Origin: Candidatus Brocadiaceae bacterium
GTDB taxonomy: Bacteria > Planctomycetota > MHYJ01 > JACQXL01 > CAKKQI01
Assembly: GCA_919901895.1 (NCBI GenBank)
Contig: CAKKQI010000149.1
Location: 1-7,314, forward strand
Length of the DNA: 7,314 bases
Direction: 5' to 3'
The translations under genes were made by a program, and so were the position numbers. Numbering within the stretch: the first letter of the stretch is position 1; every line of letters starts with the position of its first letter. The notes under the pieces are model-generated. The model was given only the letters and a program-made list of their open reading frames with translations, was not told the origin of the DNA and ran no database searches. This document shows positions 1,427-4,802 of the stretch, piece after piece.

Positions 1427-3115
1427 TTATATTTCTATTCGTTTAATGGCTTTAACGCCGAAATAAAGCGGAACAATAGTGGTTACCAGTCCTATTAAGG
1501 TGATGCCGATGGTCGTGATCGACAGCCAGAAGAGAAATGAGTTAAGCGTCAGGAGTTTGATGGTAAAATAATAATGGCAGGGGAGTGATTCCAGAATAAT
1601 TACCGTCAGGACAAAACAAAGACTGAGAATCATGTTTAAGGTTCCGCCGAAACCGCCCACAATTTTTGAGGGATTATCTTCGCACAGGTTCGGATAAATG
1701 GTGCCCAGCCCGACCGAAAGAGCCGATAACCCGAGGCAGATAATTAAAATCAGGTAGAGTTGAAATAACGTAAAAAGAAGCGGGATTTCTACCATCCAGT
1801 TGGAAATAATAATTAAAACACCGCTGACGCCGAGTGAACCGCAGAGAGCAAAAAGAAATTTGCCGTAAAAAATAGTGGCTCTCGGGATAGGGACCATTCC
1901 CAGTATCCAGAAACACCGGCCTTCCAGACTTATTTGCGGATAGACAAAACGGGTGGTGAAAGTGGCCAGGGTAAACGAGGTGGCGGTAAAATTCAGCAGA
2001 GAAACAAGATACTGCCAGAATTGTTCATTAATATTGATATAAGGCAGGTTATTGATATTAAGAAAATATACGCCCAGGAGTCCGAAAAAAATGAGAAACT
2101 GAGACCATTGCACCGGATCACGGCTGAAATTTTTAATATCTTTAATAATAAGCAATTGGATCGGTTTTTTGAAAAAGAAAAAAATAAGCGGAATAATCCG
2201 GTCCAGAAACCCATGTTGAGAGTACTTTTTATTGCGGCGCCAGGATTGAACCAGTGAATATCCGGTTCGGTACCAGCGGGCTGCGAATTGATAAGCCAGC
2301 AACATTACAAAAAGGCCGTTAGCCAGGAGCATTAAAAAAAAGAAAATCATTTTTGACGATTCGCCGTGGGCCGAGCCGACGATTCCCTGCACCATCCAGT
2401 AACTCGGTAAAAACGGGTTCTGGCAAAAAGATAGTTTGCCCAGGAATTCCTGCATCCAACGGGCGGTAAAAGGAAGGGCCAGTCCTTTTAATTGAGTCAG
2501 TTGAGAAAGAATGAGTAAAATAATTAATACCGCTAGGCTAGCCAGCGAGATAATAATATGTTTTTTCCGGCGCGGGAAAAACGTAGCCAGCCCCATCGCG
2601 ATTAAAGCGCCCAGGGCCGATGGAATCATAATAAAGACTCCAAAAAAAACTAAAAAAATCGGATAAAACGACAATGGATTTCGGTAAACAACGCCGTAAG
2701 CGACCATTAACGGCGTGCCCAGAAAAAGAAAGGCCCAAGAACTGAACGTTACCGTATCAAGCAGTTTGTAAAGAAAAATATGCGATTCTTTTACAGGAAA
2801 AGATAATAAAAATTCTGATTCCTTTGATTTGTATAATGAAGAATAAATGATAATGGCGTTACTGATAATTAACATTAATCCCAGGGCGAAAAAAAACAGG
2901 GCGAAAAGATACTCGGTCAGCCAGCCGCTTAAATCAGGAAACTGGTTTAAAAAATTAAAAACACCGAGAAAGATACGGAATAGGCTGAGCCAGAAAATAA
3001 AGCTGGCTAAAAGAACAACCGATGTTTTGAATTTAGCTTGCTGTTGAATCAGCCAGGTCTGGTTAATTAAACCGGTCAGTTTTGTCTTGATGAGAACCAG
3101 AACCGGATATTTCAT
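1427..3115 (-). CDS. ABC exporter permease, large polytopic (ABC-2-like) family
   Basis: A 562-residue integral membrane protein with about twelve hydrophobic segments (roughly 32-57, 69-93, 120-143, 150-178, 187-205, 255-277, 336-353, 366-388, 418-440, 447-472, 490-510, 525-553). Motifs I recognise from a family of long, probably internally duplicated ABC permeases are KSKESEFLLSFPV (96-108), KDIKNFSRDPVQWSQ (325-339), SLEGRCFWIL (396-405) and EDNPSKIVGGFGGTLN (479-494). It should form the membrane channel partner of the ATPase at 3302-4030. The substrate cannot be read from sequence. Start ATG 3115 is preceded by AGGGA (3125-3129) at 9 bp. Unlike the tightly packed genes before it, it is separated from its ATPase by 186 bp that hold a repeat element. 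It ends with TAA 76 bp before feoB. Confidence 0.88.
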   Translation of the reverse strand: MKYPVLVLIKTKLTGLINQTWLIQQQAKFKTSVVLLASFIFWLSLFRIFLGVFNFLNQFPDLSGWLTEYLFALFFFALGLMLIISNAIIIYSSLYKSKESEFLLSFPVKESHIFLYKLLDTVTFSSWAFLFLGTPLMVAYGVVYRNPLSFYPIFLVFFGVFIMIPSALGALIAMGLATFFPRRKKHIIISLASLAVLIILLILSQLTQLKGLALPFTARWMQEFLGKLSFCQNPFLPSYWMVQGIVGSAHGESSKMIFFFLMLLANGLFVMLLAYQFAARWYRTGYSLVQSWRRNKKYSQHGFLDRIIPLIFFFFKKPIQLLIIKDIKNFSRDPVQWSQFLIFFGLLGVYFLNINNLPYININEQFWQYLVSLLNFTATSFTLATFTTRFVYPQISLEGRCFWILGMVPIPRATIFYGKFLFALCGSLGVSGVLIIISNWMVEIPLLFTLFQLYLILIICLGLSALSVGLGTIYPNLCEDNPSKIVGGFGGTLNMILSLCFVLTVIILESLPCHYYFTIKLLTLNSFLFWLSITTIGITLIGLVTTIVPLYFGVKAIKRIEI

Positions 3116-3187
3116 ATCGGTGATTCCCTGCAGGATTAACTCATCTTGCTATAGACCGTTAAGTTACGGCCATTACCATCAGGTCGG

Positions 3188-3202
3188 CTAGTGCCTTGTC
3201 AA
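3188..3202 (+). repeat. Left terminal inverted repeat
   Basis: The 15-mer CTAGTGCCTTGTCAA is the inverted partner of 3291-3305, with one difference (G at 3198 where the partner's complement has A). Read on the minus strand it contains TTGACA (3202-3197), but no good -10 follows at normal spacing. Confidence 0.75.
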
Positions 3203-3222
3203 CTTTGTTTTTTGTTGGTTAC

Positions 3223-3269
3223 CCAGACTAAAGTCTGGTCCGCCTGAGGCGGATTAGGCTTTAGCCTAA
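3223..3269. repeat. Three directly abutting perfect palindromes
   Basis: Palindrome 1, CCAGACTAAAGTCTGG (3223-3238), has 7-bp arms around AA. Palindrome 2, TCCGCCTGAGGCGGA (3239-3253), has 7-bp arms around G. Palindrome 3, TTAGGCTTTAGCCTAA (3254-3269), has 7-bp arms around TT. They follow each other with no spacer base. Palindromes 1 and 3 share a CTAAAG centre but in opposite orientation, so the core is an inverted pair around a GC-rich palindrome. In RNA read from the minus strand they could form three consecutive small hairpins. No T-run follows on either strand, so this is not a standard intrinsic terminator. Confidence 0.85.
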
Positions 3270-3290
3270 GGACAACACCTAATTTCAGTA

Positions 3291-3305
3291 TTGATAAGGC
3301 ACTAG
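3291..3305 (-). repeat. Right terminal inverted repeat, overlapping ATPase stop
   Basis: TTGATAAGGCACTAG is the inverted partner of 3188-3202 (14/15). On the minus strand its outer CTAG supplies the last base of the final alanine codon GCC and the TAG stop (3304-3302) of the ABC ATPase gene. Confidence 0.75.
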
Positions 3306-4030
3306 GCTGATTCCTGGGTAATGGTCAGGAAGATATCTTCCAGGTTGCCGTTTACCCGGCTTTGTTTTTTCAATTCCGCCATTGTGCCGGTCATAATCAG
3401 TTGACCGTTATTGATAACGCCGATGCGGTCGGCTACTTCTTCGGCAATCGTTAATAAGTGGGTGGACATAAAAATAGTGGTGCCGTTTGATTTGGATTCT
3501 TCGCGAAAGAGATTTTTAACCAGCCGGGCGCTCCGGGGATCCAGCCCGACCAGCGGTTCATCAACCACAATAATCTGCGGTTGACGCATTAAAGTACCAG
3601 CGATAATTAACCGTTGTTTCATTCCCAGAGAATAAGTTTCAATCAACTGGTCAAGATAACCGGCCATCTGGAATAATTCTACGTATTTGGCTAAAGATTT
3701 ATTAAAAGAATCGGAATTCACCTGATACATCCGGTTGATAAATTGTAGGAACTCGCGGCCGGAAAGTTTCTCATAAATAAAGGGCTGGTCCGGAATATAA
3801 GCCAGATACCGTTTGGCGGTCAGGTAATCATCCTGAAGAGAGAATCCGTTAATAAAAATCCGTCCGCCGGTCGGCCGTAAGAGCCCGACCAGGAGTTTAA
3901 CCGTGGTAGTTTTGCCGGCCCCGTTCGGTCCGATAAAAGCAAACAATTCTCCGGCCGGAATTTCCAGGGAAAGATTATCAAGCGCCATCTTAGTTCCGTA
4001 TTTTTTTACGACGTTTTCAAATTTAATCAT
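3302..4030 (-). CDS. ABC transporter ATP-binding protein
   Basis: A 242-residue cytoplasmic ATPase that should power the permease at 1427-3115. All nucleotide-binding elements are present: Walker A GPNGAGKT (34-41), Q-loop glutamine Q82 in IPDQPF, signature YSLGMKQR (133-140; a variant of LSGGQ common in ABC-2 exporter ATPases), Walker B IIVVDE (153-158) with catalytic E158, the D-loop GLDP (162-165) and the switch histidine H191 in STHLL. The length is normal for a stand-alone ABC-2 type ATPase. Start ATG 4030 lies 4 bp after the preceding stop; only a weak purine run (AAAGAAGAA) precedes it, so translational coupling is likely. Its TAG stop lies in the end repeat of the element at 3188-3305. 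The C-terminal stretch after residue 215 (TGTMAELKKQ) looks complete for the family. Confidence 0.95.
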   Translation of the reverse strand: MIKFENVVKKYGTKMALDNLSLEIPAGELFAFIGPNGAGKTTTVKLLVGLLRPTGGRIFINGFSLQDDYLTAKRYLAYIPDQPFIYEKLSGREFLQFINRMYQVNSDSFNKSLAKYVELFQMAGYLDQLIETYSLGMKQRLIIAGTLMRQPQIIVVDEPLVGLDPRSARLVKNLFREESKSNGTTIFMSTHLLTIAEEVADRIGVINNGQLIMTGTMAELKKQSRVNGNLEDIFLTITQESA

Positions 4031-4034
4031 AATT

Positions 4035-4802
4035 TTATTCTTCTTTAAGTAAATACAAACCGGGGATCAGGGCTTCTTGTTTCAGGATGTCTCCGGCCGG
4101 GGTAATCCAGGCGCGGAATTGGAATTTTTTATAATCAAGCACCACTTCATAAACTTCATATTCCTTTTCCTGCCACACCAAGGTTGTTTTTTCTTCCACC
4201 CGGGCGGTGGTTGATTCAACCTGCCCGCTCAGAGGGTTAATCATACTGCTGGCCCATTGCTTGCCGACTGAAAGATGAGGCATTGAGGTAAAAGGCGAAA
4301 AACCGTGCGAAACAATAGTATTTGGCTGAAAAGGCCGTCGGCTGGTTTCCATTTTCTTCCCGTCCCAGATGTTTAATTCCAGCGATGAACCGTTAACTTT
4401 CCCTTTAATCTGATAAGTCAGGTTAATCATCGGCGAGGTGATTGAGAAATCAAAGGAATCCAACTGGTAAGAAAGGTTAACTAATGAATAACCGGAGATA
4501 TCTATTCCGGCCGGAAGAACTATCTGGCCGGATGGTATTTTTTCGATCTTAGTGATGTTGGTAATTTTATAATAATTATTGTCCGGCTGGCGGCTGATGA
4601 CGGTTTTCGTGTATCCGATTCTTTTATTAAAAAGGTAGATACCCATTTGTGAGGGCTTGAAATCTTTTAGATGTTTAAGGATGGCTTTATAAGACGGGTC
4701 GGTTAATTGGGGCAGGGTCGGTAAAATTTCTTTTTTAATAAAAAGGGTGGTCATCGTCAGCCAGAAAAATACGATTGAATAACCGATTATTTTTCCAAAC
4801 AT
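4035..4802 (-). CDS. Unrecognised membrane-anchored extracytoplasmic protein
   Basis: I do not recognise a named family. The 255-residue product has a single hydrophobic segment at 5-23 followed by KK. It is probably a signal anchor or uncleaved signal peptide, since there is no lipobox cysteine and no clear cleavage site. The rest is polar and beta-rich in appearance, with stretches such as GIYLFNKRIGYTK (54-66), LSVGKQWASSMINPLSG (177-193) and AWITPAGDILKQE (231-243). The last resembles the WxxxxGxxLxxE endings of beta-sheet modules found in some large exported proteins, a weak likeness only. It lies 13 bp after the HIT gene and 4 bp before the ABC ATPase, which suggests co-expression with the exporter and perhaps a role as an accessory protein or in envelope maintenance. 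Start ATG 4802 has no strong Shine-Dalgarno. Confidence 0.8.
   Translation of the reverse strand: MFGKIIGYSIVFFWLTMTTLFIKKEILPTLPQLTDPSYKAILKHLKDFKPSQMGIYLFNKRIGYTKTVISRQPDNNYYKITNITKIEKIPSGQIVLPAGIDISGYSLVNLSYQLDSFDFSITSPMINLTYQIKGKVNGSSLELNIWDGKKMETSRRPFQPNTIVSHGFSPFTSMPHLSVGKQWASSMINPLSGQVESTTARVEEKTTLVWQEKEYEVYEVVLDYKKFQFRAWITPAGDILKQEALIPGLYLLKEE

Follow-up and report, generated by a model that had tools for sequence, protein, structure and literature searches.

A probable IS630-ended MITE on the TAG stop codon of an ABC transporter ATPase gene

The stretch of DNA analysed here (the window, 7,314 nucleotides) is contig C149 of an assembly (G000, the own genome) that comprises 2.5 Mb in 509 contigs and is 93% complete. 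It carries a string of genes that includes HIT, L17, RpoA and S4-domain genes, together with an ABC transporter ATPase (3302..4030; PF00005, E 7e-28) and an ABC transporter permease (1427..3115; PF16949, E 5e-154), both on the minus strand. A short element lies between the last two genes, as a preliminary description of this DNA had stated, with the ATPase upstream of it in the direction of transcription and the permease downstream. The ATPase ends at about the same position as its orthologs when compared by eye, and the gene therefore does not look truncated. Adjoining the transporter genes, positions 4035-4802 encode a 255-aa protein with no match in Pfam or NCBIfam.

The outermost bases of the element, 3188-3202 and 3291-3305, are complementary at 14 of 15 positions, an inverted repeat that is real and far from chance. 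Between them lies a 47-bp core (3223-3269) of three palindromes side by side, CCAGACTAAAGTCTGG (3223..3238), TCCGCCTGAGGCGGA (3239..3253) and TTAGGCTTTAGCCTAA (3254..3269), each recognised by direct reading and by folding; ends and core were found where the preliminary description had placed them. The predicted folding energy is -54.2 kcal/mol for plus-strand RNA (z -7.6), -26.4 for plus-strand DNA (z -7.3) and -49.3 for minus-strand RNA (z -7.0), and in each case none of 200 shuffles equalled it. The CTAG at either extremity, also described previously, is present, but direct reading and comparison with other copies assign both the left 4-mer (3188..3191) and the right one (3302..3305) to the target site rather than to the mobile part, which thus covers about 3192-3301. 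The ATPase reading frame ends within the right CTAG, its TAG stop codon being 3302-3304 on the minus strand. Terminal inverted repeats were delimited at 3192..3218 (plus strand) from an alignment of 11 ends and the model built on it (model R1, E=1.1e-5, with the window ends in the training set) and at 3275..3301 (minus strand) from the same alignment and model. The end shared by the family is about 27 bp long and reads NTAN followed by TGCCTYGTCAANNTTGAA.

At 118 bp the element is too short for a transposase gene, and the sole listed open reading frame of at least 60 aa that overlaps it is the end of the ATPase. The two weak matches obtained with Rfam at E<=1 do not overlap the element, nor does any of the three terminator-like sites in 2900-3600. 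An outward promoter formed from TTGACA in the ends was considered and dropped, as no promoter-like site was found in the same interval.

The own genome has six copies with both ends and a single unpaired end (on C1), so that several copies sharing their ends, which the preliminary description had named as a sign of mobility, do occur in the source genome. The ends of about 27 bp are common to all of them and the core is not. Used as a query, the whole element recovered C61 (92% identity), C155 (75%) and, over the core only, C495 (93% across 43 bases). Other copies adjoin unrelated genes, the C61 copy lying a few bases past the stop codon of an ORF that we take to be mraY. A 14-base end allowed up to 3 mismatches returned mostly noise (100 matches versus 237 for a reversed control); at 0-1 mismatch it has eight matches in the own genome, including C447 and C127, which have the identical end type around another core. 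C328 carries a 137-bp member that has diverged and is bounded by CTAG on either side; a looser matrix finds both of its ends, and model R1 rates the left one at no better than E 1.1. With C328 left out, the eleven own-genome ends align without gaps over 31 columns. These eleven ends served as the training set for the matrix and for model R1, so own-genome scores are not independent; independent support comes from the end matches at low mismatch, from paired ends in other genomes and MAGs, and from the test of 30 IS630 loci described below.

The cores behave differently from the ends. That of the window occurs with family ends on C149, C61 and C155 and without them on C495, at four loci only. 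C447 and C127 have as their core (core ii) a palindrome that occurs dispersed, GTCATTCCTGC...GCAGGAATCC...CTCCCGCTTTCGCGGGAGTGAC, with 14 matches in the own genome, two of which are the C447 and C127 copies and 12 of which lie where model R1 finds no end at E<=10. It was matched in eight of the 12 genomes searched (own genome included), 49 times in G002, and in that genome two RAYT genes have parts of the palindrome no more than a few hundred bases away. Since the same ends surround different cores, and cores also occur without the ends, the ends behave as a mobile frame and the palindromes as cargo, and the palindromic cores may have been captured by mobile ends. At the C495 locus (L004:733-782), which has the window core but not the MITE ends, the core supplies the stop codon of an ORF that is presumably ubiE, and GCACCAA/TTGGTGC flank the core on either side.

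Beyond the own genome, 392 genomes of the phylum were scanned with a sequence-only end model trained on its copies, and 31 of them (own genome included) have a match at E<=0.1, many being weak single ends that probably arose by chance. Paired inverted ends 109-163 bp apart were found in G002, G314, G384, G089 and G236. One 109-bp member matches 41 times in G314, and several G314 copies of this high-copy CTAG-ended MITE have common left flanks and different right flanks. In genome contigs the end pattern was found in three stretches from two named MAGs, one of Omnitrophota and one of Desulfobacteraceae, in which paired inverted ends were likewise seen, and the Omnitrophota MAG carries an identical 90-bp element at two loci; no literature related to MITEs of Omnitrophota was found among papers judged by title. 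As a DNA query the whole element had no match at E<=1e-3 in 98 other genomes and no matches in plasmids and phages. The exact pattern of the window core was absent from viral contigs and genome contigs, and the end pattern from viral contigs.

A candidate partner was found in G021, a genome of the same class, in which family ends 1236 bp apart (G021:C105, L136:1598-2833) surround a transposase split over two frames, whose pieces match HTH_32 and DDE_3 as well as NF033545 transpos_IS630 (E 1.5e-40). The right end of this copy directly abuts the end-like sequence CTAGTGTCCTGTCC, which suggests that the IS630 copy inserted at an element's own CTAG end. Relatives of the G021 transposase are present in 85 of the 392 genomes. 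Among 30 IS630-transposase loci, that of G021 included, 14 have matching inverted ends 1172-1247 bp apart, when a pair is defined by a summed score of at least 20 with the window-genome matrix and by a spacing of 1100-1350 bp, a range set after a first look; 100 column-permuted matrices gave a mean of 0.5 and a maximum of 2 end pairs on the same loci. The transposase match lies between the ends in all 14, one of which (L233) is weak, its ends agreeing at 6 of 20 positions. The other 16 loci, some of them cut by contig ends, have no such pair, and no ends were convincing at the DDE_3 loci of G009 and G007, where the best scores were 8.1 and 9.9. The own assembly, which is fragmented, yielded no DDE_3 match and no match to the G021 transposase. 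A transposase with matching ends, which the preliminary description had suggested looking for, is present in related genomes and was not found in the own assembly, and we infer mobilisation, as well as which transposase moved the element and when. Because MITEs are mobilised in trans, the missing transposase counts against the identification of the partner and not against the interpretation as a MITE. The ends are those of an IS630-family group, which supplies the family that the earlier description had not been able to name.

Insertion is supported by the orthologous junctions. Of 39 relatives, 20 yielded the permease, and 14 junctions were compared, a partial same-order match in G002 being left out; distances were taken from the ATPase stop to the first candidate permease start codon. 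Stop and start overlap or lie at most 23 nt apart in nine of the 14 junctions overall and in four of the five from the same order, where the window has a gap of 186 nt. The remaining five of the 14 have gaps of 122-361 nt and no family ends (best scores <=5.3). Empty ATPase-permease junctions, sought at the suggestion of the preliminary description, thus exist across genera, the sites compared being those of other genera and not of sister strains.

The flanks of the copies bear on the length of the duplicated target. The window copy has TA on both sides, and its CTAG/CTAG, the commonest state among copies with agreeing 4-mers, fits a 2-bp and a 4-bp duplication alike. Exact 4-bp repeats at C61 (CTAC/CTAC), C127 (GTAG/GTAG) and L163 (CTAC/CTAC) favour the longer duplication and would be expected of a MITE of an IS5-like family, such as MITEPsy1, for which passages of PMC3189936 give a duplication of CTAG or YTAA. 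We nevertheless consider an IS5-like origin improbable, because the autonomous elements with matching ends carry IS630 transposases and because C447 (ATAG/CTAG), G002:C410 (GTAG/CTAG), L164 (TTAG/CTAG) and L118 (GTAG/CTAC) fit a 2-bp TA duplication instead. Among the 37 distinct copies of G314, the two 4-mers are identical in 13 and differ in 24, with decay or slips in the alignment accounting for some of the differences, and some copies have an identical non-TA centre on both sides. IS630 itself is said, in the title of a 1991 paper by Tenzen and Ohtsubo, to prefer the TA in CTAG.

The preliminary description had called the element MITE/REPIN-like, and a REPIN would be a pair of REPs moved by a RAYT tyrosine transposase. 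In keeping with this, core ii is a dispersed palindrome with parts near the two RAYT genes of G002, and the own genome has one Y1_Tnp match, for which the best NCBIfam model, REP_Tyr_transpos, scores 54 bits, below its cut-off of 80. The only RAYT-like gene detected in the own genome (L251, G000:C364:15138-15458) is, however, flanked by other, GTAG-headed TGTAGCTGCG... repeats, and none of the four cores tested matches that locus. The window core, with its four loci, also lacks the GTAG/GTGG head motif that a REP table in PMC2817692 gives for REPs. We regard a REPIN as very improbable: the MITE half of the label is upheld by the copies, the tight junctions and the IS630 elements with matching ends, but the REPIN half is not, given the different repeats at the RAYT gene and the missing head. 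Least probable of the readings weighed here is a fixed cis-regulatory RNA of the transporter operon, an attenuator or a processing hairpin. The strong hairpin on either strand between co-directional genes would agree with such a role, yet it is contradicted by the dispersed copies beside unrelated genes; moreover, the nine tight or overlapping junctions leave no room for it, the five longer gaps are without the ends, and no Rfam, promoter or terminator match overlaps the element.

We therefore read the 118-bp stretch, with a probability of about 0.82, as an IS630-ended MITE with no gene of its own that was cut and pasted in trans into the CTAG of the ATPase TAG stop. In the mechanism we propose, an IS630 transposase acting in trans would cut the MITE out and paste it into the CTAG that contains this stop; the target duplication and the first base of the element would together rebuild the TAG, so that the upstream gene would survive; and the hairpin may now uncouple translation of the permease from that of the ATPase. 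As the element sits exactly on the ATPase stop codon, it likely did no damage, and the rebuilt stop is the likely reason that the site was tolerated.

Landing on stop codons was also seen among other copies, in counts that were made post hoc. When open frames of at least 60 codons are considered, the TAG of the 4-mer is the precise stop of an ORF in eight of 16 paired copies, and two of these ORFs have what we take, from their sequence, to be complete GatC and FKBP endings. A strict gene caller gave five of the 16, missing three G002 cases from the open-frame look, and nine of the 22 G314 copies that have 400 bases on both sides. The same element end lies on the stop codon in seven of the nine G314 landings. 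The background, taken with the strict caller as the share of stops among non-coding plus stop CTAG sites, was 1/22 in the own genome (268,551 bases), 5/36 in G384 (400,000 bases) and 3/25 in G314 (400,000 bases), the G384 value being borrowed for G002, the named MAGs, G089 and G236. In total, 14 of 38 copies lie on a TAG stop versus 4.3 expected (P 3e-5); the expectation rises to 6.3 when the G314 background is widened to GTAG/CTAC (P 0.002) and to 8.0 when this widened background is applied to all copies (P 0.018), and with G314 left out the count is 5/16 versus 1.7 expected (P 0.018). Of 49 flanks in G314, 13 have an ORF of at least 100 codons running into the element, ten of them in the TAG frame. 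Copies of the insertion sequence have no excess at stop codons, with two of six flanks that have a long ORF running in being in the TAG frame. Where the target was CTAG, an in-frame TAG cannot have been internal to a gene, so ORFs in the TAG frame had already ended there before the insertion. The pattern reflects a transposase preference for CTAGs of this kind or, alternatively, selective retention of the insertions. In literature on IS630, MITEs and CTAG duplication, judged mostly by title and including passages of PMC10969869, no description of stop-codon landing was found.

IS630-derived MITEs are already known, among them RUP (the repeat unit of pneumococcus) and the Correia elements, in passages of PMC2229807, PMC3049150 and PMC2817692. 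RUP, as described in parts of PMC2229807 and PMC3049150, is likewise geneless, about 107 bp long, with ends like those of IS630-Spn1 and a TA target. It occurs in other hosts and is a simple repeat, a comparison made by description and not by alignment, whereas in the present family one type of end surrounds palindromic cores of different sequence, and copies are often located at TAG stops. The Correia elements of Neisseria, according to passages of PMC2817692 and PMC3049150, share the IS630 derivation, inverted repeats of about 26 bp and internal sequence of variable length; they too have other hosts and were compared by description rather than aligned, and one of the cores here is a palindrome that is also dispersed independently. 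With IS630 and ISY100 the family has in common an IS630-family transposase and a TA target (passages of PMC2170065), CTAG being preferred by IS630 according to the Tenzen and Ohtsubo title in the reference list of that paper, but the window copy carries no transposase and the length of the duplication is mixed among family copies. REP and REPIN sequences with RAYT are palindromic and intergenic as well; unlike them, the present family has no GTAG/GTGG head, has IS630-type ends and an IS630 partner, and is present in few copies. What is variant here is the combination of shared ends around exchangeable, partly REP-like cores with landing on stop codons.

We tentatively extend this to MITEs of IS630 type that target CTAG in general, and think it possible, if rather doubtful, both that TAG stops serve them as safe landing sites in packed operons and that their ends are a vehicle for exchangeable REP-like cassettes. 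If this is true, a mobile system disperses repeats that belong to a different one, shared ends carrying REP-like palindromes. Hitting a stop codon and rebuilding it would offer a transposon a simple route into gene-dense operons without gene breakage, a mechanism that can be tested in any genome with IS630-type elements. The element would also be a chimera that links two classes of bacterial repeat, IS-derived MITEs and REP-like palindromes, and would show how operon junctions can gain long RNA hairpins.
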